The notes under the pieces were generated by a model. That model had not been told where the DNA came from and made no database searches. It saw only the letters and a program-made list of their open reading frames with translations. From Deltaproteobacteria bacterium (GTDB lineage Bacteria; Myxococcota_A; Polyangia; JAAYKL01): a DNA stretch of 36,167 nt. This document shows positions 4,921 to 33,474 of the stretch, in pieces (within the stretch, counting starts at the first letter, position 1; each line of letters opens with the position of its first letter). A program made the position numbers and the translations under genes. The stretch is taken from NCBI GenBank assembly GCA_016935665.1, contig JAFGQN010000032.1, positions 1-36,167 of the forward strand, written 5' to 3'.

Positions 4921-5733
4921 ATGGCGACAATGGATACGGGATGGGTACTGTTTACCCTGCAAAAACAACAATTTGGCATGCCCATCAAGGATTTGCTTCA
5001 GATGGTGGTACTCGACAAAGTGGCCACACAGGCAACTGCGCCCGAGACTGTGCGGGGTCTGATTAACCTGCGCAACCGCATTGTGCCGGTGGTGGACACA
5101 CGGCAATGTCTGGGCATGACTACCAAACTGAGCCAGCAAAACGAATTTGTGCAGATGATGAATGCACGCAAACAGGACCACATTCACTGGCTGGACGAAT
5201 TGTTTTTGGCCATCGAAGAAAAGCGGACGTTTACATTAACCCGGGATCCCCATTTGTGCGCTTTTGGAAAATGGTACGACGGATACAAAACCGACAACGC
5301 CGTCTTTGGCATGCATCTGGCCAAATTTGACGCCCCCCATCGACGGATTCATCAGCTGGCCGACGAGGTGGATATTCTGGTGTCTCGACACGAACTGGAC
5401 AAGGCCCAGAAACTCATTGAGAAAACGCGGGACAATGAGCTGAAAACGATGATTACCCTGTTTGACAGCGTGGAAACGGTCCTGAAAGAGGCGGAAAAGG
5501 AGATTGTGCTGATTATGAACAGGGGCAACCACCTGATGGGATTCGTTGTAGATGATGTATACACGGTAAAGGATATCCAACCGGACAACATTCAAATGGT
5601 GGACCAGGTGCATTCCATTTGTATGGATGGCGGCACGAGAGTGGCCGAAGTGGATGGGGTTACCAGTATTCTGCTTCACCCGGATGATGTATTTCGAACC
5701 ACATCCTCCCTGCTGGATACGGCCTCTGAATGA
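4921..5733 (+). CDS. CheW-like coupling protein with inserted CZB zinc-sensing domain
   Basis: The 270-residue protein begins with the first half of a CheW fold (WVLFTLQKQQFGMPIKDLLQ to NLRNRIVPVVDTRQCLGM, residues 8-66). The second half appears only at residues 184-258 (IVLIMNRGNHLMGFVVDDVY to GVTSILLHPDDVF). Between them, about residues 82-155, lies a chemoreceptor zinc-binding (CZB) domain: H89-W90, C113-AFGKWYD and FDAPH140RRIH144, the His-Cys-His-His set that binds Zn, then a helix. CheW proteins link chemoreceptors to CheA; CZB domains sense zinc or oxidants such as HOCl through the Cys. This would make a soluble coupling protein that is itself a sensor. An AAAGGA site precedes the ATG. 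No other chemotaxis genes are in the window. Confidence 0.88.
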   Translation: MATMDTGWVLFTLQKQQFGMPIKDLLQMVVLDKVATQATAPETVRGLINLRNRIVPVVDTRQCLGMTTKLSQQNEFVQMMNARKQDHIHWLDELFLAIEEKRTFTLTRDPHLCAFGKWYDGYKTDNAVFGMHLAKFDAPHRRIHQLADEVDILVSRHELDKAQKLIEKTRDNELKTMITLFDSVETVLKEAEKEIVLIMNRGNHLMGFVVDDVYTVKDIQPDNIQMVDQVHSICMDGGTRVAEVDGVTSILLHPDDVFRTTSSLLDTASE

Positions 5734-15198: not shown

Positions 15199-16668
15199 CT
15201 ATTTCGCTCGACAGGCGAGAGGACAGTCGTCTGTCCGACAGGCGGCGCATACAATCCCATCGAGGACGTCTGATGCGTCGTTGGAGATTCTACTTTCCAG
15301 GATGTCCATGTAATTGGTTTGCAGGTAGGCGGCCATTATATCACCAATCTCCTGGCAAATGTCATCGTCGGCACCCACAGATACGTCATCAATCTCAATA
15401 TCGGTCTGAGCAATTTCAACATCGTGCAGCCCGTCTCCCTGTGCCGCATTGGGCGTCAGGTTGCTATCCACTTGCACGGCCACACCCGACAATAACACAT
15501 CGAAATTACAGGATAGCTGGCCCAGCAGCGGCCCCAAATCCAAAACCGTGTCTATTGGCGCAGCAATTGGCGCCATTCGTATTGTCGACGTCATAGATTG
15601 CGGGTCATCCACGCTGTCCACAGTCACTGTCACATCGGACGCTTCGTAAATCACATCACATCCTGCAGCGCCGCTTGAACAGGTGCTGGAAGCGCAAATA
15701 GTCACTTCCAGGCCCGATGCCTCAACCGTTTGAGAAGGTATACACATCGTCTCTTTCGAACCTGTTCTCTCATCAAGCCAATCTTCAACGCATAGCACCG
15801 GTCCATTCGCAGTCGTCTGTTCACACATGGCTGGCAAAGGTATAGTGTCCGTGTCCTCAGTTTCTGTGTCCTCAGTTTCTGTGTCTCCCGTCTCTGTGTC
15901 TCCGGTTTCCGAATCTCCGGTTTCTGTATCCTCGGTCGCCGTGTCCACGGTCTCTGTATCCACGGTCTCTGTATCCACGGTCGCCGTATCCACGGTCTCT
16001 GTATCCACGGTCTCTGTATCCACGGTCTCTGTATCTTCGGTCGCGGTATCCTCAGTCGCCGTATCCACGGTCGCGGTATCCTCCGTCGCGGTATCCTCCG
16101 TCGCGGTATCCTCCGTCGCCGTATCAATCACTTCTATTCCCTCGGAATCGTGTACCAAATCCCCCATTATCACTTCTTCGCCGTTCTCCAATTCAAACCG
16201 AAACGACAGAATAGTTATTTTATCTTCTTCTATTTCTACCGATTGCTCCTTCGAAGATACAAGCTGGGCAGCCATGGTTGTTTTGTCGCTTCGACGAACC
16301 AATTGCCAGCCATCACGCAAAGCAGCCGTATACTCCCCTTCCAGCAGGGTCATCTTTACATAGGGTCCCGCGTTGCCATCTCCGGACACCCGATATTTCT
16401 GGCGCCCTTTTAAATCCAGTGTCGCGCCACCGAGCAGATACGCCGCACCGGATGCGCTCGTCCCCTGGAGCGGCCAAATCAGCGTGCCCATCTGATTTCC
16501 CACAGCGGAGCGACTGCAGCCCACCGCTTGCGAAAGGAGCACCAGCCCCATCAGAATTGCACACAGCAAATATCCAAAGTTCCTACTGTTCTTTGGGCTG
16601 ATTTTGCCGATTATTTTTCCAGTTCGCAAAAGGTACCTCGTTTCAATCGTCCGGTTTTCATCTGGCAT
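15199..16668 (-). CDS. Lipoprotein with pentapeptide DT[AE]T[EVG] repeat linker and Cys-rich C-terminus
   Basis: A 489-residue protein. LLCAILMGLVLLSQAVGC is a lipoprotein signal with the lipid Cys at about 51, so the N-terminal extension before it is unusually long and the true start may lie downstream of the ATG at 16668. An N-terminal globular part (about 52-175; YVKMTLLEGEYTAALRDGWQ) precedes the tandem repeat (about 180-275), 18 units of the DTATE, DTETV and DTETG type, strongly acidic. The C-terminal domain contains paired Cys (ICASSTCSSGAAGCD, CAACRTDDCPLACRAK), probably disulfide-bonded, and beta strands. The repeat is likely an extended spacer that lifts the Cys-rich domain off the membrane. 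Function unknown. It is divergent from the 16834 gene. Confidence 0.7.
   Translation of the reverse strand: MPDENRTIETRYLLRTGKIIGKISPKNSRNFGYLLCAILMGLVLLSQAVGCSRSAVGNQMGTLIWPLQGTSASGAAYLLGGATLDLKGRQKYRVSGDGNAGPYVKMTLLEGEYTAALRDGWQLVRRSDKTTMAAQLVSSKEQSVEIEEDKITILSFRFELENGEEVIMGDLVHDSEGIEVIDTATEDTATEDTATEDTATVDTATEDTATEDTETVDTETVDTETVDTATVDTETVDTETVDTATEDTETGDSETGDTETGDTETEDTETEDTDTIPLPAMCEQTTANGPVLCVEDWLDERTGSKETMCIPSQTVEASGLEVTICASSTCSSGAAGCDVIYEASDVTVTVDSVDDPQSMTSTIRMAPIAAPIDTVLDLGPLLGQLSCNFDVLLSGVAVQVDSNLTPNAAQGDGLHDVEIAQTDIEIDDVSVGADDDICQEIGDIMAAYLQTNYMDILESRISNDASDVLDGIVCAACRTDDCPLACRAK
15846..16125 (-). repeat. 15-bp tandem repeat array (18 units) inside the lipoprotein gene
   Basis: About 18 copies of a 15-bp unit (forward GTATCCTCCGTCGCG and variants) encode the pentapeptides. 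The unit length is a multiple of three, so gain or loss of copies keeps the frame and would change only spacer length. Several neighbouring units are identical (16074-16118), suggesting recent expansion. Confidence 0.85.
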
Positions 16669-18749: not shown

Positions 18750-19067
18750 CTATTTACGCGATACGGACTCCAGCACCCATTTTACGTAATCCGGATTGCT
18801 GCCGTTTTCGTCGATGTCAAGGGAAACAATCTCCGGTACTTCGTAGGAATGGAGAGCTTTGAGTCGTTCGATAAGGGAAGGCACTCTGGCTGCCGTTGTC
18901 TTCATGATCATCAGTGACTCGGTATCGTCACAGATGTTGCCCTTCCATGTGTAAATGCTTTGTACTGCGGGAACGATATTCACGCTGGCCACCAGCTGCT
19001 CCGACACCAGTGTTTTTGCGACTGCCGGTGCTTCATTGGGCGGTATGGTGGAAAGAATCAGTTTCAT
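18750..19067 (-). CDS. cutA: CutA divalent-cation tolerance family protein
   Basis: A 105-residue protein with the hallmarks of CutA1: the opening MKLILSTIPPNEAPAVAKTL, the LVASVNIVPAVQSIYTWKG core with the conserved Tyr-Thr-Trp, then the MIMKTTAARVPSLIERLKAL helix and the SYEVPEIVSLDIDENGSNPDY segment. CutA forms a stable trimer and has been linked to copper and other metal tolerance in E. coli, though its molecular role is not settled. The ATG at 19065-19067 is chosen over a TTG four codons upstream. The gene starts 35 bp after the FHA-DUF4388 stop and is probably read in the same transcript. A 12-bp palindrome CACCAATTGGTG lies just downstream at 18731. Confidence 0.93.
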   Translation of the reverse strand: MKLILSTIPPNEAPAVAKTLVSEQLVASVNIVPAVQSIYTWKGNICDDTESLMIMKTTAARVPSLIERLKALHSYEVPEIVSLDIDENGSNPDYVKWVLESVSRK

Positions 19068-19102
19068 GTGTATTCGCAAAGAGGTTCAAATTCTGCAGAA
19101 AA

Positions 19103-20098
19103 TCAGAGCAATTCCGCTTCGAGATAATCCCCGGCCAGCAATTTTTGAATGACATCTGCCGCTTCCTTGTCGGACAGCTCTGTGCTGTTTACCAGTTCCC
19201 GTATGCTGATTTCCTGGTGATTGTACACAATTTGCAGCACATCCAAATCCGGTGGGGACAACAGGGACATTCGAGCGCTCAGCGGCCTTGGCACGGTGAC
19301 TTTGGTTTCATCGTCGGGCAGCTTGCTCTTCTGACGACGCAATTCATCCAGTTGCCGCAACCCCTCCATGAGAATATGTTCGGTAGGCAAATCGATGGAT
19401 GAGGAAAAATTCTGTGGCTCGGGTCCCATCAAATCGAAATCGCCTTCTTCCCAGGAGAGAATGCGATACATGGCCTTGAGGGGCTCGAGATTGGGCATGT
19501 CGCTGATGGACGCATACACAATGCGCCCCTGATCCAGGTGGATTTTAGCGATAGTGAAATTATGATTGAGCACCAGCGTGCCTGTTTTTTTACTCGTGCT
19601 GAATAGCTGAATTAGATCCGGCAGAGGCACTTCGGTGATGGTGCCGCTCATGGATCTGGCGCCGCTGTGCATGGTGGTGCTGCGATTCATACCCGCATAG
19701 CCCGCCATGGGCATGGCCGTATGCTGTTGTGTCGGCGCATTCCGCGGGCTGACGGCAGAATTCATGGTGGGCTGGACCGCGCTTACCGACTGGGTCTGAT
19801 CCGTGGCATCGACCAATTTCATGATGGAGGTTCCAATGAGAATGCGGTCGCCTTTTACGGCAGTGGTTGTCGTGATTTTTTCTCCATTCACAAAGGTGCC
19901 ATTGGTGCTGCCATTATCGGTCACGCTCACTTCGTCGCCGTTCACCATCATCAGGGTGTGCCGCCGGGAGACCATGTCCTCCATCAGAACCACGTCGGCA
20001 TCGGAACTGCGACCAATGACCGTTTCCTTGCCATCTTCCAGTATATGTTCTTTCCCCTTGTACTTTCCGGAGATAAATCGCAACGCGAGCTTTGCCAT
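19103..20098 (-). CDS. FHA domain protein with C-terminal DUF4388 (PATAN-like) domain
   Basis: A 331-residue cytosolic protein. Residues about 4-95 are a forkhead-associated domain: VIGRSSDADVVL, VSRRHTLM and NGSTNGTFVNGEKI carry the Gly-Arg, Ser-Arg-His and Asn residues that bind phosphothreonine. A Gln/Met/Thr-rich linker (about 96-145) joins it to DUF4388 (GTITEVPLPDLIQLFSTSKK, TGTLVLNH, AKIHLDQGRIVYASI, EPLKAMYRILSWEEGDFDL), a module common in delta-proteobacterial signalling proteins. The last 60 residues (LDVLQIVYNHQEISIRELVN to ADVIQKLLAGDYLEAELL) look like a winged-helix-type segment. It likely reads threonine phosphorylation by a Hanks-type kinase; none is in the window. Upstream genes encode another FHA protein. 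Confidence 0.9.
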   Translation of the reverse strand: MAKLALRFISGKYKGKEHILEDGKETVIGRSSDADVVLMEDMVSRRHTLMMVNGDEVSVTDNGSTNGTFVNGEKITTTTAVKGDRILIGTSIMKLVDATDQTQSVSAVQPTMNSAVSPRNAPTQQHTAMPMAGYAGMNRSTTMHSGARSMSGTITEVPLPDLIQLFSTSKKTGTLVLNHNFTIAKIHLDQGRIVYASISDMPNLEPLKAMYRILSWEEGDFDLMGPEPQNFSSSIDLPTEHILMEGLRQLDELRRQKSKLPDDETKVTVPRPLSARMSLLSPPDLDVLQIVYNHQEISIRELVNSTELSDKEAADVIQKLLAGDYLEAELL

Positions 20099-20446: not shown

Positions 20447-22102
20447 TCAACCGGCGTCAAACGCAGTGACTACTTTTAGTGAATCGTCGGTGTTTTGTTT
20501 GAAATGGACAATTTTTTCCACCAGATTACCGGAATCCGAAGGGCTGCAAATCACCACGATATCAAAAATCCGCGTAAACGTGGTCACAGCCAGAGAAGGC
20601 GCCTCCGAGATGGAGAGAAATCCCGCTCTGAGCGACAGCGCCAAATCGCCGCCGCTGCCCAGGGGCACATCTGCGATGATTGGGGTGCCTTTGGCCGCCA
20701 TCTGAAAAAGGGCCGGCATTTCTGTCCAGGAACCAATGCGCGCCATCAGACGTTGGGCGCCAAAATCATGCACCGCCTGTGTGAGTTCTGTCATCATTCC
20801 CGTATTTCCCTGTCCCGGGGGAAGATTAAAATGAAAGTGATTGTCGCTCTCTATCTGTATCAGCGGAAGGGGTTCCACCACGGCCACACGCTCTGCAGTG
20901 CATTCATCGAGAATCTGTTCCATCAGCATCAGTCTGGACAGAGCGCTGTCCCCCAGAATGGCGATGCTGCCACCGCTTTCAAGAGCGAATCGGATGGGCG
21001 CCATGGCACTGTCGGGCATCGTTTTCGTTTTTTGTCTGTAAATCACCACAGCAGGTAAATGCGTGTTGCGCGCCGGCTGATACGCGATGAGGTCTCCCGT
21101 TTCGAGACGAAATCGACCGCCGCTCATCGCCGCGACGGTGCGACTGCCGGGAAGTCCTGCTATCAGACAGTGCAGCGCGGCGGCCAGCTGTCGCTCCGTG
21201 GTAAATTCCTCTGGAGGGGCCACCACATTCCCTTTGGCTACCACCTGCACCCGATGCTGACCGTTGATTCTGATTTCATCAATATCCGGATTGTTCAGCA
21301 AGGTCGCCAGAGGCCCAAGGTCCACAATGGATAAGAAGGTTTCCATGAACAGCGAACCGCGGGTGTAGTCTTCGGGCAGCTGTTTTGCCTCTGCAAGTCT
21401 GGAAATCATTGGTTTCAAAATCTGTCGGACACGGCCGGCCACCACCGGATCCGCCACGTTGGGCAGCGTGGCGCGATCCATCTGCCGTTCTTCAATGGCT
21501 ACAAAATCAATCAGCTGTTCCACCGGAGCATTCAGAGGCGCCCGTGAGCTGCGCAGATGAAACGGTCCTGGATGTTCGGTTTTGGATTTACCGGGCGAAA
21601 ACTGAAAGTTCGATTTGATTTCCGGCAACGCCGAAATATCAATGGATGTCAATGTGTCTTCGTCGTCGTCCATCTGCTCCAGCGTCAGTGGGGTGGCGCC
21701 TCCAAAGGACTTCGGGGGCGGCACCGATTTGCGCCCTTTGGGCACCGGCGAGGGAATGGACGGTCTGTCCGAACTGATCACCGGGATATCCGGAGAGGAG
21801 GGCTCATCATTTTCATTCATGGAAACCGACACGATAAACTCACCCAGATAGACTTTGTCGCCAGGCTCCAGAGGCGTGGGCCCGGTGATTTTTCGACCGT
21901 TCACGTATGTCCCGTTGGTGCTGCCAATGTCGGTTACTGTGAACTCTTTGTTAATCAGCTGAATCTGCGCATGCTTTTTCGACACATTGCCCAGCGGCAA
22001 CACGATATCGTTGCCTTGCAGTCGGCCAAGGGTCACAGCGGACTTGGTGCACTCAACCAATTTTTTCTGCCCGCCTTTTTCGGTTATCGATATAGTAAAC
22101 AT
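20447..22102 (-). CDS. FHA domain fused to degenerate CpaF-like (T2SS/T4SS) ATPase
   Basis: A 551-residue protein. Residues 1-95 are an FHA domain (VTLGRLQGNDIVL, VSKKHAQI, IGSTNGTYVNGRKI). After a Pro/Ser linker, residues about 195-545 follow the CpaF/VirB11 plan: YTRGSLFMETFLSIVDLGPL, LLNNPDIDEIRINGQHRVQV, then a RecA-like core. Where CpaF has the P-loop GGTGSGKTTLL this protein has AILGDSALSRLMLMEQI (GDSALSR, residues 384-390), with no lysine or threonine; the Asp-box region is VAVVEPLPLIQIE, and the GEVR/Walker B region is also replaced. The fold seems kept but ATP hydrolysis is very unlikely. It starts 14 bp after the membrane-protein gene with an AGGAG site. Probably a phosphothreonine-reading scaffold or regulator. 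Confidence 0.85.
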   Translation of the reverse strand: MFTISITEKGGQKKLVECTKSAVTLGRLQGNDIVLPLGNVSKKHAQIQLINKEFTVTDIGSTNGTYVNGRKITGPTPLEPGDKVYLGEFIVSVSMNENDEPSSPDIPVISSDRPSIPSPVPKGRKSVPPPKSFGGATPLTLEQMDDDEDTLTSIDISALPEIKSNFQFSPGKSKTEHPGPFHLRSSRAPLNAPVEQLIDFVAIEERQMDRATLPNVADPVVAGRVRQILKPMISRLAEAKQLPEDYTRGSLFMETFLSIVDLGPLATLLNNPDIDEIRINGQHRVQVVAKGNVVAPPEEFTTERQLAAALHCLIAGLPGSRTVAAMSGGRFRLETGDLIAYQPARNTHLPAVVIYRQKTKTMPDSAMAPIRFALESGGSIAILGDSALSRLMLMEQILDECTAERVAVVEPLPLIQIESDNHFHFNLPPGQGNTGMMTELTQAVHDFGAQRLMARIGSWTEMPALFQMAAKGTPIIADVPLGSGGDLALSLRAGFLSISEAPSLAVTTFTRIFDIVVICSPSDSGNLVEKIVHFKQNTDDSLKVVTAFDAG

Positions 22103-22116
22103 ATGGTTACTCCTGC

Positions 22117-23664
22117 TTAACGGGATTTCGGAAACCAGCCAAAAAACATTTCCAGTGCGGCTCGTCGATCGCTTTCCAGATAATCAAAGTTTATGCCACG
22201 GTCATTTATTTCCCAAAACTCCCTGGTGCGAATGCTTTTGAGCTCCTGGCGAATGGAACTCAATCGACTGGGCAGTTCATCCTGCATATCCTCAAATATG
22301 GTGCGCGCCAGCGATTGTGCACCCTCCACCAGATAAAACGTGGCCAGCTTTATCTGAGCCTTGCGTACACCCCTCAAAGATGCTTCAAGAGAATGGTCTG
22401 CTTCGGCTTCCTTGTCCACTTCCAGAAAAATGTCCAGCAGCTGCTTTTTCACAGGGGTGTCCAGTCGATAGGCCAGCTCGTTCAAATCACACAGATCGTA
22501 TGCCGCCGTTTCCAGCACAAACGGCAGCCCCATGGCAAATCCCAATTGGCCATAGTACTTAAATCGCCGGGCAATATCCACCGCTATCAGTGATTTACGG
22601 CTTTCGAGCACAGTTTGTGCCAACAGCCGATACTGGTTGAGAATATTGTAGGCGGTACGCACATCCCGGGCGTTGATGGTGGCCCGCATATATGTGTTAA
22701 AAAACTTCACGCATAGCGAAACAATCTGCTCATTATCATTTTTAAGCGCCTGCTCCGCGATGCGACGGGTATTGATTGCCAGCAGGTAATTGATATCCCG
22801 CATACGATTAAGGGATTCGCCATACAGCATCTGATACTGGCGCAGTATTTTCATCTCCAGCCAGTAGTTTTTGTGCTCAATATCGGCAAGCACGTCTTTT
22901 TGCATGGAGACAAAGTCGGGATTATCCCGCATATGAGTGGTCAGCGTAAACCACTCCGCATGCAGCTTTGGTTTAATTTCCAGGTAGTCGCAGGTAAGAC
23001 GTCCCAACGCATCAACCGCATGCATGCACACCACTTTGTCCTTGCTTTCGATGGCGCCACTGGCCACATCAGACAGCTGTTCAATACCGCGTACGCAATT
23101 GCTCTTCATGCGGTCGGGAAAACGCTCGTCCACACCGCCTTTTTCAATCGCGTGAAACACCGACGCGGCCATGCGATCGATGATGTTGTGAGGATTTAGA
23201 AAATTAAAAACAAACGCAAAATAGGGCAGCAGCAAAATAAGGCAAACCGCCACGCACACGATAGTTACCACGGAGCCCACATGGGGAACCATCTGATTGG
23301 AGGTGGTCACGGTGACCCACAGGCATAGCATGCCGGTCACTACAAAAAAGCTCAATATGCCGATGTTCACACCCGAGGCCATAAACAAATCCGTGATGCG
23401 CGCGGTATAGCGGTTGGACGCCAGCTCTACAATAATGGCCACCACCGTAATGGAAACGCCCAGAATACCAATAATCACCTCGGGCAATCCACTGACCGCG
23501 CCGTTTTGGATGGATTTGAAAAAAATGTCGGTAAAGGAAACATCATCCCTTGAAAAATCAAACATCGCCGTGACAAAACACAGCAGCGCACTGATGGAGC
23601 CAATGGAGAGCAGGGCAATAAGTGGACCGCCGGTAAACGTTTTAATGGCCTGATTGTTTTTCAT
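22117..23664 (-). CDS. Multi-spanning membrane protein, DUF2254-like
   Basis: A 515-residue protein with four hydrophobic segments in the first 165 residues (PLIALLSIGSISALLCFVTA; VIIGILGVSITVVAIIVELA; IGILSFFVVTGMLCLWVTV; VGSVVTIVCVAVCLILLLPY) and a large soluble, helix-rich C-terminal part. GVSITVVAIIVELASNRYTA followed by RITDLFM resembles the conserved GvtfSi.lval.laSsqf.pRll stretch of DUF2254 membrane proteins. The C-terminal 350 residues look like alpha-helical (HEAT/TPR-like) repeats. First gene of the unit leading to the FHA-CpaF-like protein, so it may be its membrane partner. Family call is moderate; function unknown. Confidence 0.65.
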   Translation of the reverse strand: MKNNQAIKTFTGGPLIALLSIGSISALLCFVTAMFDFSRDDVSFTDIFFKSIQNGAVSGLPEVIIGILGVSITVVAIIVELASNRYTARITDLFMASGVNIGILSFFVVTGMLCLWVTVTTSNQMVPHVGSVVTIVCVAVCLILLLPYFAFVFNFLNPHNIIDRMAASVFHAIEKGGVDERFPDRMKSNCVRGIEQLSDVASGAIESKDKVVCMHAVDALGRLTCDYLEIKPKLHAEWFTLTTHMRDNPDFVSMQKDVLADIEHKNYWLEMKILRQYQMLYGESLNRMRDINYLLAINTRRIAEQALKNDNEQIVSLCVKFFNTYMRATINARDVRTAYNILNQYRLLAQTVLESRKSLIAVDIARRFKYYGQLGFAMGLPFVLETAAYDLCDLNELAYRLDTPVKKQLLDIFLEVDKEAEADHSLEASLRGVRKAQIKLATFYLVEGAQSLARTIFEDMQDELPSRLSSIRQELKSIRTREFWEINDRGINFDYLESDRRAALEMFFGWFPKSR

Positions 23665-24037: not shown

Positions 24038-25306
24038 TCACAATTTGGAGATGAACTCCCAGGCCAGCGGCGGCATGAACGCTTTCAGGCCATCATCACC
24101 CGGTGACCCATCGCTCACACTCGACGGGGTGTGTGCGCCATCGAATGTGCACACCTTGACCGGATACCCTTCAGTGCAGCCCTCGTAGTCGTAGCAAAGG
24201 TGATTGTTGCTTCCACGCGATGCTGTCTGGAGGTCATTGGGCACTGTGCAGCCGTTTTCTTCGGCGTGAGCGATGGAGCAGTACTTGCCGCCCGTCCGGT
24301 TGCCATCGTTGTTGACCCAGGGACAGGTTCCGTCGCTCATGCCTGTGATAGAGAAGTAGGCCACCGCGTCGGCGCTGTCGGTCGGCTGGGTGAAGTTATA
24401 GTTCGCCGGCGCCATCGTGATTGCGCCGCGCAGCTTGTCGGCGCGCCCCAGCGAGAGGGCGTGGCTCATCATTGCCCCAAAGCTGAAACCAGTTGTGAAT
24501 ACTCTGCTTTCGTCGACGCACAGATTTTTGGTGATGTGTTCAAGCAAGGTGTCGAACAGAGCGACGTCCCGATCGTAATCCCAGGGGAAATTGCCGATGC
24601 CATCAGGGGCAACGAAAATGGCAGAGTCTCCAGCCTCTTTCGCTGCGCGCTGAAGTCCGAAGTACGCGTAGTGTTCAGCATCGAAGTTGGGACCATTGTT
24701 GGCCGGATACTGACCGACGGCATTTCCATTCGCGGAACCATAGGCCTGGTGCCAGGAGAAGATCAGTCGGTATGGGTGGCTGGGATCGTAGTCCTCAGGA
24801 ATGTCGATGATGAAGTCGCGATTCCCTCCGCTGTTGATGCTGAGCCGAGTCGATGTTGCAAGCCCCCCCTGGACCGACGAGCCGCCTGCTGTGATTGTCT
24901 GCGCACCGTCCGCGACGCCACATCCAATGCTTGGGACCACGTCGGAATCCGTATCCATGTCGGATTCCGTGTCGGAATTCGTGTCGGTATCGGAATCTGA
25001 GTCAGTATCAGCGTCGGAATCCGGATCCGAATCCGAATCCGTGTCGGCATCGGAATCTGAGTCAGTATCAGCGTCGGAATCCGAATCCGAATCCGAATCC
25101 GTGTCGGAATCCGTGTCGGCATCGGAATCTGAGTCAGTATCAGCGTCGGAATCCGAATCCGAATCCGAATCCGTGTCGGAATCCGTGTCCGAATCGGCGT
25201 CGCTCTGTGAATCGGAGTCTCCTTTTTCAGTTTCCTTTGTGCATCCCAGGGGGAAACAAAGTCCGAAAAAGAAGAGCAAATAAATAAAGTGTGTTGCGTA
25301 TTTCAT
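24038..25306 (-). CDS. Ser-Asp-linker lipoprotein with PHB-depolymerase/feruloyl-esterase-like alpha/beta hydrolase
   Basis: A 422-residue lipoprotein. Signal [18 protein letters not shown] ends in the lipobox PLGC; a GGGAGA site precedes the ATG. Residues about 33-125 are almost only Ser, Asp and Thr, an acidic spacer. The rest is an esterase of the LpqC/CE1 type: [20 protein letters not shown], the oxyanion region [26 protein letters not shown], the nucleophile elbow GFSFG with S275, D325 in [11 protein letters not shown], and H392 in FDGAHTPSS. That completes a Ser-Asp-His triad. Relatives cleave feruloyl or acetyl esters on plant polysaccharide or polyhydroxyalkanoate. Several Cys ([28 protein letters not shown]) probably form disulfides outside the cell. 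Confidence 0.87.
24981..25172 (-). repeat. 60-bp direct repeats encoding the Ser-Asp linker
   Basis: A 60-bp unit starting GTGTCGGCATCGGAATCTGA (forward) occurs at 24981, 25041 and 25113, nearly identical each time; the second interval is 72 bp because of a 12-bp extra block. Both periods are multiples of three. The identity at DNA level, not only protein level, points to recent duplication. Confidence 0.8.
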
Positions 25307-26496: not shown

Positions 26497-28572
26497 CTAC
26501 TGAAAGAACAGTTCCGGGGTTGTGTTGTATACCGGTCCAATGCCGGATGCACCGCTTTGGTTCACTAAATCCACCGCATTCAGGTAATAATATGGAGATG
26601 TCGATGAGCTGCTCGATACAAAAAACAGAACACCGCTGTCGGGGCTGAACTTTAGAAATCGGTCCGACGGATATGAATGTTCATATACACCTGAATCCAT
26701 GTACGCCACATGGTATGTCAGCGTTTTCAGGTTGGCCAGATATACGTTTCCTTTAAATACCGGGTCCGTGCCGCTGTAATCTGCCACATACCCCACAATG
26801 GCAGCCAGCTCCCCATTGGGACTCATTTGAAGGTGGGTAACGGCTTCTTCACCCATATCCGGACTGATTTTCACGGGCAAAGACAATTCACCCGCAGCCA
26901 CGGAGGCACCGTACACCGCATTGGTGGATGCCGCCAAAAGGCGCGACCCATCGGGACTCAATCCCCCAAAGCGCGTCAACTGTTCTGCGGCCACACTCAT
27001 GTGCGCTTCTTTGTAGGGGATAGTGGATAAATCGGAATATGTAATCTGGTCCAGCGCCGTGTGCTCCAAAAACGCCACCGACTGACCGTTCTCATCCCAG
27101 TGCACATTGTAATCACAGGCATAACCGGTACTGCGCGCCACATCAATTGTGTTGCTGCCGTCTTCCACGTCAATAATCGCGTTACCCCGTGTGGCCTCGT
27201 CCGGAATGAACATCCATTCGTAATTGGCGCTATGGGCCGCGCAGTAGCCACAGCCATCGCCCACCATTGTGGCGTTGTCGTTCGCGTACACCACATAGTG
27301 CCGCCAGCTTTGACACGGGCCGGAGACGGTCGTTTGCAGGGAAATGGCCAGTGCCTGTCCGTGGGGCGAATTGAAGTGATCGGTAAGCAGCGCGTAGGCA
27401 GTGCTGATGCTCCCCAGCGCTGATACGGCTCGTTTGGATGCGGTGTCCACCACATTGTCCTGAATATCCACCAGCCAGGCTTCCGTTTTTCCCACCACCA
27501 GCAGAGTATCATTGTCGACCGGCGCCGCCCATGCACCCTGAGCCGTCATAGTCACCGTACCCACTTCCACCAGCGCGTTACCGAGGGTATACCAGTGAAC
27601 CATCATGGCGGCTGCATCGTATTCCACTGTGAAACCAATTGACCGGCTGTCCGGAGTCCAGGTGGGCAGCGTAATGTGTTTACCCGAAACAATAATGACC
27701 TCTGTCCCTGGCCCTTCGTCGGATATTGGCACCAGCACGAGTTCATCGGTGGTTCCGACGTCCCGCGTGTACAGGAGATACCTGCCATCGGGTGAAAAGC
27801 CATACAGGGCGGGAGACGCGCCACTATCGGGCCAATCGTAAACCGTAAAGAGCTGTCCCGTGGCTGGAAATGTGATGTCCATCAGTTTCACATCATGGGT
27901 GTCACTCAAATAGGCCATCCATTTATTTCTAAGGACTTTCCATTGAAAATTCTGTGTGGTTTGGGTGTCCCCCGCATCGGTCACTTTCACTGAAAAGGTG
28001 AAGTCGCCCCCTTTTGCAGGGCGGCCGTGCAGTTTGCCATTGGTAACTTCCACGCCTGTGGGCAGATTACTGCCTGCTTCCACTGTCAGCGCATACGGTG
28101 GTTTGCCACCGGCGATGGTGAATTCAAACTCAAAGTCCTGATTATATTTCCCATCGGGGATTTGCGCCGGCTGGAACACCAGAGGGGCAATGACGTCGGA
28201 TTCGCTTTCGGATTCTGTGTCTCCTTTGGCTGTGTCAGTGGTTTGCGTATCTCCAGTATCGGAATCGTCGGTGCCGTTGGCGGTTGTTCCGGTATCTGTT
28301 GACACGGTGTCCTGCGTGTCCGTTTGTGACGCTGTGTCTTTATTGCCTGTACCACTGGCCGTGTCGGAAAGCGTATCTGCATCCGTTTGCGTCCCGGATT
28401 CTGTATCCTGCCCGGTGCCACTGTCTGTTGAGAAAGCCGAATCCCCGATCCCCGCAGAATCCGAATCGGTGGCGGTGGCCGTATCGGGCGCTTTCAAATC
28501 AAAATCGGAAACGCAACCACTGATAAGAAAAACCATCCACACGCTGCAAAACAATCCACATATTTTTATCAT
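26497..28572 (-). CDS. Thr/Ser/Asp-linker lipoprotein with Ig-like domain and TolB-type propeller
   Basis: A 691-residue lipoprotein: signal MIKICGLFCSVWMVFLISGC with lipobox ISGC, an AAAGGA site before the ATG. Residues about 25-130 form an acidic Thr/Ser/Asp linker. About 130-215 is a putative-Ig (He_PIG) domain: IPDGKYNQDFEFEFTIAGGK, PPYALTVEAGSNLPTGVEV, NGKLHGRPAKGGDFTFSVKV. The rest is a beta-propeller with WD40-like PD40 units (FSPDGRYLLYTRDV, WTPDSRSIGFTVEY, WDENGQSVAFLEH, LSPDGSRLLAAS, MSPNGELAAIVGY, FSPDSGVLFFVSS). Such propellers are usually protein- or glycan-binding platforms. Two Cys-rich loops (GPCQSW, GCGYCAAH) suggest oxidised extracellular folding. It lies 43 bp downstream of the TPR-PEGA gene. 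Confidence 0.8.
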   Translation of the reverse strand: MIKICGLFCSVWMVFLISGCVSDFDLKAPDTATATDSDSAGIGDSAFSTDSGTGQDTESGTQTDADTLSDTASGTGNKDTASQTDTQDTVSTDTGTTANGTDDSDTGDTQTTDTAKGDTESESESDVIAPLVFQPAQIPDGKYNQDFEFEFTIAGGKPPYALTVEAGSNLPTGVEVTNGKLHGRPAKGGDFTFSVKVTDAGDTQTTQNFQWKVLRNKWMAYLSDTHDVKLMDITFPATGQLFTVYDWPDSGASPALYGFSPDGRYLLYTRDVGTTDELVLVPISDEGPGTEVIIVSGKHITLPTWTPDSRSIGFTVEYDAAAMMVHWYTLGNALVEVGTVTMTAQGAWAAPVDNDTLLVVGKTEAWLVDIQDNVVDTASKRAVSALGSISTAYALLTDHFNSPHGQALAISLQTTVSGPCQSWRHYVVYANDNATMVGDGCGYCAAHSANYEWMFIPDEATRGNAIIDVEDGSNTIDVARSTGYACDYNVHWDENGQSVAFLEHTALDQITYSDLSTIPYKEAHMSVAAEQLTRFGGLSPDGSRLLAASTNAVYGASVAAGELSLPVKISPDMGEEAVTHLQMSPNGELAAIVGYVADYSGTDPVFKGNVYLANLKTLTYHVAYMDSGVYEHSYPSDRFLKFSPDSGVLFFVSSSSSTSPYYYLNAVDLVNQSGASGIGPVYNTTPELFFQ

Positions 28573-30423: not shown

Positions 30424-33400
30424 TCAACGCCAGGGATTTGGCGTTGCCGGGTCGCCCAGCAGGTTGAAGGTGGCTATGGCGTCGACGGAGGGAATTCCAG
30501 GTTGCCCGGCAAGTTGGTGTTTGGCATTGTACAGCGCCTCGCCAATCGTTTCTGCAAGGCCAGACGCCAACTGATAATTCACAGCGTACGACAGGCTATC
30601 GACGGACGCGGGTTGCGACAGGCTCGAACTGGCCACCGCAGCCACTGCGCCACCTTTGGGATTGCTCACAAATGCCCAGGCCAGCGAGTCATCCCATGGG
30701 CCCGTAAAGGCGCCGTCAAAACACGACCAGGACAATAGAACAAACAGCCGTTCGTTGGAAAGCGCTCCCACACTGGATACGGTTGCAAGCTCGGGCGACG
30801 ATGACCATCCGCTCAGGAATGCGTGACCGTTGAAATTCACCACATCCAGTCCTCTGTCGACGGCGTTTACGAAATCAGCGGCCGCATCGAAGGCGTCGTC
30901 CCGATACAGTCTCACCGCGCTTCGCGCGTCCAGCCCCGTCACTTCAATCTGCATCTCTGCCGCAGATTCAAATACGCCCACTTTGTTTTGCGACACATTT
31001 TCGTCCCGATCGGCGATAAACAAACTGAGACCGGCGCCGCCGCCTCTCCATCCAATAATCTTGTCGACCACCCCATTGGCTTCTTCAACCGTTTCCACCG
31101 CGAGTCGGCCAATGGAAACTCCCAAAAGTCCATCCACATAGTAGCCGTCTGAAGCGGCTTCGTAGTTGTCCGCGAGTGTTTTATGAAACGGCGCAGGAAC
31201 AAAATCCTCGTTGCCCAAACCAAGGTATCCCAGAGGATCCACAGATGCAGCGCCCATCAGCAGGACATAGCGGGGCGCCTGTCGCCAGACGGCATGCGCC
31301 GTTGCAATGAGATTCCGAATGGCGCTGGGATGTTTGTTTCCGTAATTGAACGCATTGTAGGCGTCGTCCGTTGTCACAATTTTTACGGTGAGACCATTGC
31401 CGCTATGAAAAGCAGCCATTTTTTTTGCTGCATGCGTAAACATCGGATGGGTGATAATCAGATAATCTGCCTGGTTGTTCCGACTTGCAAGGGGGCTCTT
31501 CGCCGGGAAAGGGTCGCCGAGAGACGGTTCCAGGGCATCTGACAGCGACACTAGAAGCAGTTCCTGTGTTTTGCCACTTTTGTTTCGCCGAGTCGGTGGA
31601 TTGAACACAATACCGTCCGGATTTTGGGGAGTTGTCCTAAACCCCGTCAGTTCCACGGGATGGCTGTCGTCAGAAACATCAAACAACCGATATGCAGAGC
31701 CGGGAATCAATCCGTCAACTTCAACACACTGCCCCGCTGGCGCTTTAAAATAGAGTCCCTCCGGTAATGCGCGAAGCGGCCGTTTCATCGATACAGTCAC
31801 GCTATCTATCCAAAGAAGATCTATCGTGCCGGTGTTGAGAATGCTGAGCGCCAGGGTATTTTCGCCCTCCTTTAGTATCCCCGCCGGAACAGTGGCAGAC
31901 AGGTGGGTTTTGTCTCGCCCTTCCCACTCAAATACGTCGAGAGAAACGCCATTCACAGAAAGCTGCGCGGTATGATCCATCCCCACAACGTTCGCCAGTC
32001 CTGCCACCGATACAGAAATCGTCGCTGCGTCGTCAGTAACTGCGGTCAAATAGAAGTTGACTTTTGCGGGTACTCCCACAAATGCCATAGCCCACTGGAA
32101 GGGATCGCCAGACGGTGTGCTGACGTTGTACAGATTGTTCTGCGCAAATGGGATGACATCCTCATACTGGCGAACAGGGCTATCGCATCCCAAAAGGGAC
32201 ACCCGTTTGCGGCGCATTTTTTGCGGCGTGCCCCGGGACAGCACATATGCCTGAGCGTCGGTATATCGGTTGGCCGCCACTGTTCCCAAAAAGTAAATGC
32301 CTTCCTGGCCCATCAGCGTGGGAATACTTTTTCCATTTCGCATCACGCGTATCCCACGCTGCACCCTGGAGCGCTGCCCCAGGGCGGTCCCAAGGGCGTC
32401 ATATGCCACGAACTGAAGCCCGTCCACGTCCACCTCGGCGCTCACCGCCATTTTACCATTGTATGCCTTCTTTGGGGAAACGGCGGCCATACCAAACAGT
32501 GTATGCAATCTGTCCATCACAGATGCAGTTTCTTTTTGCTGCCACAGCGCACTTGCGCCTCGGGAACGCCATGTGGACGACCCGCGCATGAAAAAATCTT
32601 CGCCCGTTGCTTCCATAATTGAATGAGACGTGATCTTTCCACCGTACGCCACATCGTCAATTCGGTACATATTCCCCTTTTTACCCATCACATCAAAGAA
32701 GCTGTATCCTCTGCCAAAGGCGGAATCCCCAAGGCCGGGAATGGGAATATCGTTCAACCGTTGCCAGTTTCTGCCGGTCTTCCGGTACACATGGAAGCCG
32801 GCATTGCGTCGCTCCGCACCGGTCTTCCAACTAAGCAATACTCCCCCGCTATCCAGCGCCACCGCCCAATGGGCCAGCATCCGAACAGAAAGCGGTTCAA
32901 CATCCTCTTCTGTGCCGTCGTAAATGATAAAGCCGTTGTCACCTTCGCCCGGTTCAGGCGCATTATCTGTTACATTCACCAGACCCGAAGTTGAAACGGA
33001 AATGCCGATTGTATCGTTGGTATAATTAAGCCCCAGGAGGTCGTAGGGGATAGAAAACTCTGCGAAGCTTCCGGACCAGGCGAAATCCCCGCCCGCTGGA
33101 ATCAAATCATCGGTCAGCTCCAGCGTTACGTCCGTAAATCCGTCGAGGTCTGTGTCCAGATTTAAAAAGAAATCTATATCGAAACCAAGATAACGGGGAT
33201 TCACAGTCCCGGATACTTCCACCGCCACGTACAGGTTGCCATTTGATGGATCGGACGGATTGTCGATATTGTCATCCGTCACCCAGACATTCACAATATC
33301 CCTGTGCTCGAGAAGACCAAAGAGATAGTCCATATCATCGGCGTCCGCATATGTCCAGGCATCCTGCGGCCAGTCCGACATATCCCCATCAATTGTTGGG

Positions 33401-33474
33401 GTCGCATCCGCCAGGGAGTTCAGGGAAAACAGAAACCCAATTGAAACAAAAGAAAAAATAGAAAACTTGAGCAT
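30424..33474 (-). CDS. Gingipain-like (peptidase family C25) secreted cysteine protease
   Basis: A 1016-residue exported protein. Signal peptide MLKFSIFSFVSIGFLFSLNS ends near LADA; GAGGA site before the ATG. Residues about 26-185 (PTIDGDMSDWPQDAWTYADA, VAVEVSGT, FAEFSIPYDLLGL) resemble a CBM9/DOMON-type glycan-binding beta-sandwich; about 205-290 is a FnIII-like module seen in other C25 proteins (GGVLLSWKTGAERRNAGFHV, MYRIDDVAYGG). The peptidase occupies about 660-1010: ADYLIITHPMFTHAAKKMAA, PRYVLLMGAASVDP, SIGRLAVETVEEA, the catalytic H884 in VNFNGHAF and C918 in LLSWSCFDGAF, 34 residues apart as in gingipains. No C-terminal T9SS sorting domain is present. Cleavage specificity (Arg or Lys) cannot be assigned. 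Confidence 0.9.
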   Translation of the reverse strand: MLKFSIFSFVSIGFLFSLNSLADATPTIDGDMSDWPQDAWTYADADDMDYLFGLLEHRDIVNVWVTDDNIDNPSDPSNGNLYVAVEVSGTVNPRYLGFDIDFFLNLDTDLDGFTDVTLELTDDLIPAGGDFAWSGSFAEFSIPYDLLGLNYTNDTIGISVSTSGLVNVTDNAPEPGEGDNGFIIYDGTEEDVEPLSVRMLAHWAVALDSGGVLLSWKTGAERRNAGFHVYRKTGRNWQRLNDIPIPGLGDSAFGRGYSFFDVMGKKGNMYRIDDVAYGGKITSHSIMEATGEDFFMRGSSTWRSRGASALWQQKETASVMDRLHTLFGMAAVSPKKAYNGKMAVSAEVDVDGLQFVAYDALGTALGQRSRVQRGIRVMRNGKSIPTLMGQEGIYFLGTVAANRYTDAQAYVLSRGTPQKMRRKRVSLLGCDSPVRQYEDVIPFAQNNLYNVSTPSGDPFQWAMAFVGVPAKVNFYLTAVTDDAATISVSVAGLANVVGMDHTAQLSVNGVSLDVFEWEGRDKTHLSATVPAGILKEGENTLALSILNTGTIDLLWIDSVTVSMKRPLRALPEGLYFKAPAGQCVEVDGLIPGSAYRLFDVSDDSHPVELTGFRTTPQNPDGIVFNPPTRRNKSGKTQELLLVSLSDALEPSLGDPFPAKSPLASRNNQADYLIITHPMFTHAAKKMAAFHSGNGLTVKIVTTDDAYNAFNYGNKHPSAIRNLIATAHAVWRQAPRYVLLMGAASVDPLGYLGLGNEDFVPAPFHKTLADNYEAASDGYYVDGLLGVSIGRLAVETVEEANGVVDKIIGWRGGGAGLSLFIADRDENVSQNKVGVFESAAEMQIEVTGLDARSAVRLYRDDAFDAAADFVNAVDRGLDVVNFNGHAFLSGWSSSPELATVSSVGALSNERLFVLLSWSCFDGAFTGPWDDSLAWAFVSNPKGGAVAAVASSSLSQPASVDSLSYAVNYQLASGLAETIGEALYNAKHQLAGQPGIPSVDAIATFNLLGDPATPNPWR

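Follow-up and report, generated by a model that had tools for sequence, protein, structure and literature searches.

A family of uncultured myxobacterial relatives within the Polyangia (Myxococcota) encodes a protein, P1, that keeps its FHA domain and, as far as sequence comparison and structural modelling can tell, its CpaF fold, while its nucleotide site has been dismantled and its gene has become coupled to that of a DUF2254 membrane protein, P2. The copy described here lies in the window (the whole 36,167-nucleotide stretch of DNA analysed), which belongs to genome G000, one of 14 family genomes examined; a neighbouring FHA-DUF4388 gene is designated P3 (Table 1). There is about an even chance that P1, a catalytically dead protein probably descended from an FHA-fused CpaF motor of the Kil/Tad type, now acts as a phosphothreonine-reading, non-motor adaptor seated on the DUF2254 membrane protein.

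Table 1. Features of the window, with positions in nucleotides and residue numbers of the encoded proteins
Feature	Position	Strand	Remarks
CheW fused to chemoreceptor zinc-binding (CZB) domain	4921..5733		
Protein with a long TATEDTATEDT-type repeat run	15199..16668		
CutA1	18750..19079	(-)	Pfam; adjacent in G000, G001, G002 and G005 only
P3, FHA + DUF4388 protein	19103..20098	(-)	Pfam; linked to P1 in 9/14 family genomes
P1, FHA - linker - degenerate CpaF	20447..22102	(-)	551 aa
P1 C-terminal ATPase-fold domain without catalytic residues	20450..21022	(-)	Residues 361-551
P1 remodelled P-loop	20930..20953	(-)	Residues 384-391, GDSALSRL; GGTGSGKT in intact CpaFs
P1 three-helix bundle + CpaF-fold N-terminal domain	21023..21538	(-)	Residues 189-360
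P1 disordered linker	21539..21811	(-)	Residues 98-188; EDTLTSID kept within genus
P1 FHA domain	21812..22102	(-)	Residues 1-97; G26, R27, S41, H44, N63 and G64 invariant in family
P2, DUF2254 membrane protein	22117..23664	(-)	515 aa; four predicted membrane helices (residues 12-155) and helical solenoid
Asp/Ser/Thr-rich runs like the repeats at 15199-16668	24038..25306		
Asp/Ser/Thr-rich runs like the repeats at 15199-16668	26497..28572		
Gingipain-like C25 peptidase	30424..33474		1016 aa

The N-terminal FHA domain of P1 scores well above the Pfam threshold (68.6 bits against a cut-off of 20.7, E=6e-19), and the canonical residues of its phosphothreonine-binding pocket are invariant in the family alignment. 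The Pfam scan of P1 recovers this domain only and does not detect a T2SSE domain. A CpaF-like region is nonetheless present: a profile of 12 family members matches the solved C. crescentus CpaF over columns 242-560 (E=1e-21) and, more weakly, VirB11, FlaI and archaeal GspE. The AlphaFold model of P1 (mean pLDDT 76.6) comprises the FHA domain (residues 1-95 in the model), a disordered linker (97-187) and a confident CpaF-like part (190-549); its top PDB match is CpaF 8rjf (Foldseek 2.5e-16), and comparison with 9e24 yields a VIA Z of 18.2. The modelled succession of three-helix bundle, N-terminal domain (NTD) and RecA-like C-terminal domain corresponds to the CpaF/VirB11-PilT fold, and the overall order of N-terminal FHA, disordered linker and CpaF core is that of class III CpaFs. 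Together, the profile match and the predicted fold rule out a chance likeness of P1 to CpaF. The preliminary description of this DNA had placed the two open reading frames at the positions given in Table 1, 14 bp apart, and had proposed the CpaF-like region; both hold, with CpaF as the nearest solved structure. Searches of plasmid records returned FHA-level matches only.

Residue roles were taken from C. crescentus CpaF (PMC12019362), and nine positions were scored against 31 intact CpaFs from the genomes examined, in every one of which the nine are kept. In the window P1, the Walker A residues K287 and T288 are replaced by R390 and L391, the Asp-box E312 by L414 and the Walker-B E357 by I456, and two arginine fingers, R223 and R347, have become L338 and D446. 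These replacements agree with the preliminary description, which had read GDSALSR in place of the GxxGxGKT motif and changes at later catalytic positions. Among the nucleotide-handling positions scored, R217 alone is kept, as R332, and this applies to 12/12 family members. The catalytic loss is likewise common to all 12 members with a readable CpaF domain: E357, R347, D215 and the P-loop glycine G284 are lost, T288 has been replaced by L or M, E312 by L or I, and R223 by L, I or V; the Walker lysine position carries R in 11 members and K in one. An intact Walker A in close relatives, which would have spoken against the earlier proposal, is found nowhere in the family's P1 orthologous group.

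A loss common to 12/12 members reflects neither chance nor local decay, and the recurrence of the same replacements at ~27-52% identity to the window P1 argues for one selected, remodelled site rather than random decay. Catalytic loss in the P1 family is well supported, and alignment and model agree on a dismantled nucleotide site that carries a conserved R-L / L pattern instead. A pseudogene or sequencing artefact is rejected on the recurrence of an open frame and the same loss in 12 genomes; the sole broken copy, in G013, lies at a contig end. Retention of R217 and of the fold keeps nucleotide binding formally possible, and an arginine at the Walker lysine position in nearly all members, together with R332 in every one, would suit a P1 that serves as a sensor, its changed pocket still accepting a nucleotide. 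With G284, T288, E312 and E357 gone, however, and the T288, E312 and R223 positions hydrophobic in all 12 members, such a sensor is very improbable.

Conservation is graded along P1. Mean pairwise identity is 57% in the FHA domain (29 invariant columns out of 97), 35% in the helix bundle and NTD, and 28% in the ATPase domain (5 out of 191), so that the bundle and NTD form the better conserved section of the motor half. Between the window P1 and that of G001, dN/dS is 0.07 for the FHA domain and 0.38 for the ATPase domain, rough values given that synonymous changes are near saturation; for the closer pair G012 and G013 it is, again roughly, 0.25 for P1 (readable 221 codons) and 0.10 for P2. The P1 family, dead site included, is under purifying selection. 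As the folded part with the lowest identity and with the highest dN/dS, the ATPase domain could belong to a protein that functions through its FHA domain only, the CpaF part being a decaying passenger without a role, and similar catalytic loss in other families fits the same explanation; the fast evolution of this domain would also allow a passive spacer role. A decaying passenger is nevertheless quite unlikely, since the full-length frame of about 550 aa is open in 12 genomes, the CpaF-like part is confidently predicted to fold (pLDDT about 86), residues such as D199, R210, P214, R332, E410 and F513 are invariant, and dN/dS stays below 1. As a separate observation, the otherwise variable linker retains EDTLTSID in the three genus members. 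Its T-x-T-S motif seems similar to the acidic phospho-switch ETTS found in GarA/OdhI, and the FHA domain of P1 may bind to this site in its own linker.

P2 is a member of DUF2254 (PF10011; Pfam 56.8 bits against a cut-off of 28.8), to our knowledge a widespread family without known function. Its model (mean pLDDT 85.7) displays four long N-terminal helices, predicted to lie in the membrane, and a cytoplasmic-looking solenoid with many invariant residues, and this predicted solenoid is a plausible docking surface for P1; the putative cytoplasmic domain covers residues 158-477. A Foldseek search of the P2 model against the PDB gave nothing at E <= 0.001, its top matches being designed helical repeats, which are uninformative. 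Alignments of P2 orthologues contain highly conserved stretches in the helical part, for example SLRGVRKAQ and FWE..DRG..FDY.

The pairing of the two genes is close and recurrent. P1 was found in 13 of the 14 family genomes, the exception being G003, in which the end of a contig cuts off the DUF2254 gene and no P1 was seen; DUF2254 was likewise found in 13, the exception being G007, which has P1 and P3 and no DUF2254 match genome-wide. In all 12 genomes with both genes, P2 and P1 are adjacent on the same strand, with gaps of -13 to 36 bp. The tight coupling proposed from the window is thereby corroborated, and the linkage is not confined to the source genome. Because G007 keeps P1 and P3 without DUF2254, P2 cannot be the sole partner of P1. 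DUF2254 orthologues themselves occur class-wide in Polyangia, mostly 39-50% identical and mostly single-copy, and within a named genome collection, which assigns the class to Polyangia (Myxococcota), they extend to Sorangium, Sandaracinaceae and Kofleriaceae. Eleven of the 80 DUF2254 loci returned from that collection adjoin P1, all 11 in the window's family, and elsewhere in Polyangia DUF2254 is found without P1 and degenerate FHA-CpaFs without DUF2254. DUF2254 as an old, class-wide partner of FHA-CpaFs is rejected, the pairing being absent from all 20 class-level loci and from every locus outside the family among the 80 named. Two DUF2254 loci carry the titles of other groups, Phycisphaerae for L211 and Planctomycetota for L254, possibly through mis-binning.

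P3 and CutA, both put forward in the preliminary description as possible co-workers of P1, fare differently. A single P3 orthologue is present in each of the 14 family genomes, and in nine of these it follows P1 as the nearest conserved gene, which sustains the proposal for the FHA-DUF4388 protein; in G001, other genes, including one for a TonB-dependent receptor, lie between P1 and P3. CutA adjacency is limited to the window's genus and G005, so that CutA is probably a bystander, and with linkage in only four family genomes it is rejected as a member of the system. Signalling genes also occur near some FHA-CpaFs: a Ser/Thr kinase gene near P1 in G007 (L036 1609-4305) and, beside degenerate FHA-CpaFs of other families, a PP2C phosphatase gene (L044 622-1722) and a related gene (L050 15368-16600).

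The window's genome encodes three further CpaFs, all with intact Walker A and GE-R Walker B: one belongs to the complete canonical Tad locus of contig C119 (L195), one is an FHA-CpaF accompanied by two T2SSF (TadB/TadC-like) genes on C3 (L194), and one is a lone CpaF on C249 (L196). P1 is accordingly an extra protein rather than a leftover from a pilus that has been lost. The presence of these three intact CpaFs, together with the stronger conservation of the bundle and NTD relative to the ATPase domain, favours the main rival to the adaptor reading, in which P1 regulates a living Tad/Kil motor by joining or capping intact CpaF hexamers or by competing for the TadB/TadC platform, with the FHA domain conferring phospho-dependence and the DUF2254 linkage being secondary. 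This account is rather doubtful: the family neighbourhoods seen do not show the secretin with TadB/TadC or other pilus genes that would accompany a Tad/Kil component, the one pilus-type gene recognised near P1 being that for a T2SSE protein in G004, 1.7 kb upstream. Moreover, P1 has lost both D215 and R347, an interface arginine, and the neighbour that is conserved is DUF2254.

For the preferred, adaptor reading, we infer a scaffold role, as the preliminary description proposed, in which P1 binds P2 and depends on phosphorylation. The FHA domain would recognise a phosphothreonine produced by one of the numerous Ser/Thr kinases in the cell; 65 Pkinase (protein kinase family) matches in the window's genome indicate that such signals are available. 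The helix bundle and NTD, which in CpaF are predicted to face the membrane platform (PMC12019362), would attach to the helical solenoid that P2 is predicted to hold in the cytoplasm. Kinase signalling through P1 would then change the place or state of the membrane protein, with P3 probably serving as another reader in this circuit.

The origin of P1 is indicated by its relatives. In the FHA tree, P1 groups with class-wide long-linker FHA-CpaFs, both intact and degenerate (support 96/96), and short-linker FHA-CpaFs and P3 fall outside this group. Derivation of P1 from the same family's short-linker FHA-CpaF is rejected on this placement with the long-linker group. Among the long-linker FHA-CpaFs read outside the window's family, Walker A is intact in seven and no longer intact in sixteen. 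For five of the seven, the gene order is secretin, FHA-CpaF, FHA protein, and one of these loci, L134, has a prepilin peptidase upstream. In M. xanthus Kil cluster 1, the FHA-fused CpaF KilF is likewise followed by an FHA protein, KilD (PMC8460266, PMC10433427). This match in gene order, together with the shared architecture, suggests a Kil-type motor as the ancestor of P1.

The CpaF-domain tree requires at least two changes of P-loop state, since in family f12, which branches apart from the window's family, the lost copy of G029 and the intact copy of G045 are supported sisters; with the long branches in this tree, an exact count of losses would be unsafe. P-loop loss thus recurs elsewhere in Polyangia, and the DUF2254 pairing is seen only in the window's family. 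A broader scheme can be put forward tentatively, as possible though short of an even chance: the Kil-type FHA motor may have been repeatedly stripped of ATPase activity across Polyangia and reused as a phosphothreonine-reading adaptor that, in the window's family, assembles with DUF2254 and FHA-DUF4388 proteins into a dedicated complex for membrane signalling. Separately, three closely related FHA-CpaFs of f12 (L044, L137, L139) have P-loops that are intact, changed from T to A, and changed from T to N with other changes, possibly a snapshot of ongoing motor loss.

Secretion and pilus motors are usually regarded purely as machines powered by ATP. Here selection has preserved a dead motor whose signalling domain is more conserved than its engine, which suggests that the shell of such a motor can find new use as a phospho-regulated adaptor. 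P1 offers a first testable partner for DUF2254 and, if the adaptor reading is true, would give DUF2254 its first function and add a pseudoenzyme branch to the CpaF/VirB11 motors. The family is also relevant to the part that FHA domains play in predation machines of the Kil type (PMC8460266).

A literature search for described pseudo-CpaF or pseudo-VirB11 proteins found none, although absence there is not proof. The statement that no described system has this set of genes needs dividing: the FHA-CpaF fusion is already known, as class III CpaF (PMC12019362) and as KilF (PMC8460266), whereas a conserved, catalytically dead FHA-CpaF branch in an operon with DUF2254 appears undescribed in the literature searched. 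Class III CpaF consists of an FHA domain, a disordered region and a CpaF core (PMC12019362), and P1 shares its order and fold, from FHA domain and disordered linker to three-helix bundle, NTD and C-terminal ATPase fold; unlike it, P1 is without the nucleotide-binding and catalytic residues and without Tad genes at the locus, standing instead in an operon with DUF2254. KilF of the M. xanthus Kil predation apparatus is likewise an FHA-fused CpaF with FHA partner genes in Myxococcota, and the intact Polyangia relatives of P1 share its order of secretin, FHA-CpaF and FHA genes, to which L134 adds the upstream prepilin peptidase, as in Kil cluster 1. KilF is treated as a working motor ATPase beside a secretin (PMC8460266), whereas P1 is dead and lies beside DUF2254. 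Within the DUF2254 family (PF10011), P2 is a member by Pfam score, and its pairing with a dead FHA-CpaF was seen in the window's family only. Finally, the FHA domain of P1 resembles the GarA/OdhI-type regulators in its predicted fold (Z 15-16) and conserved phosphothreonine pocket; those regulators are single-domain proteins acting on metabolic enzymes, whereas in P1 the FHA domain is fused to a motor fold.
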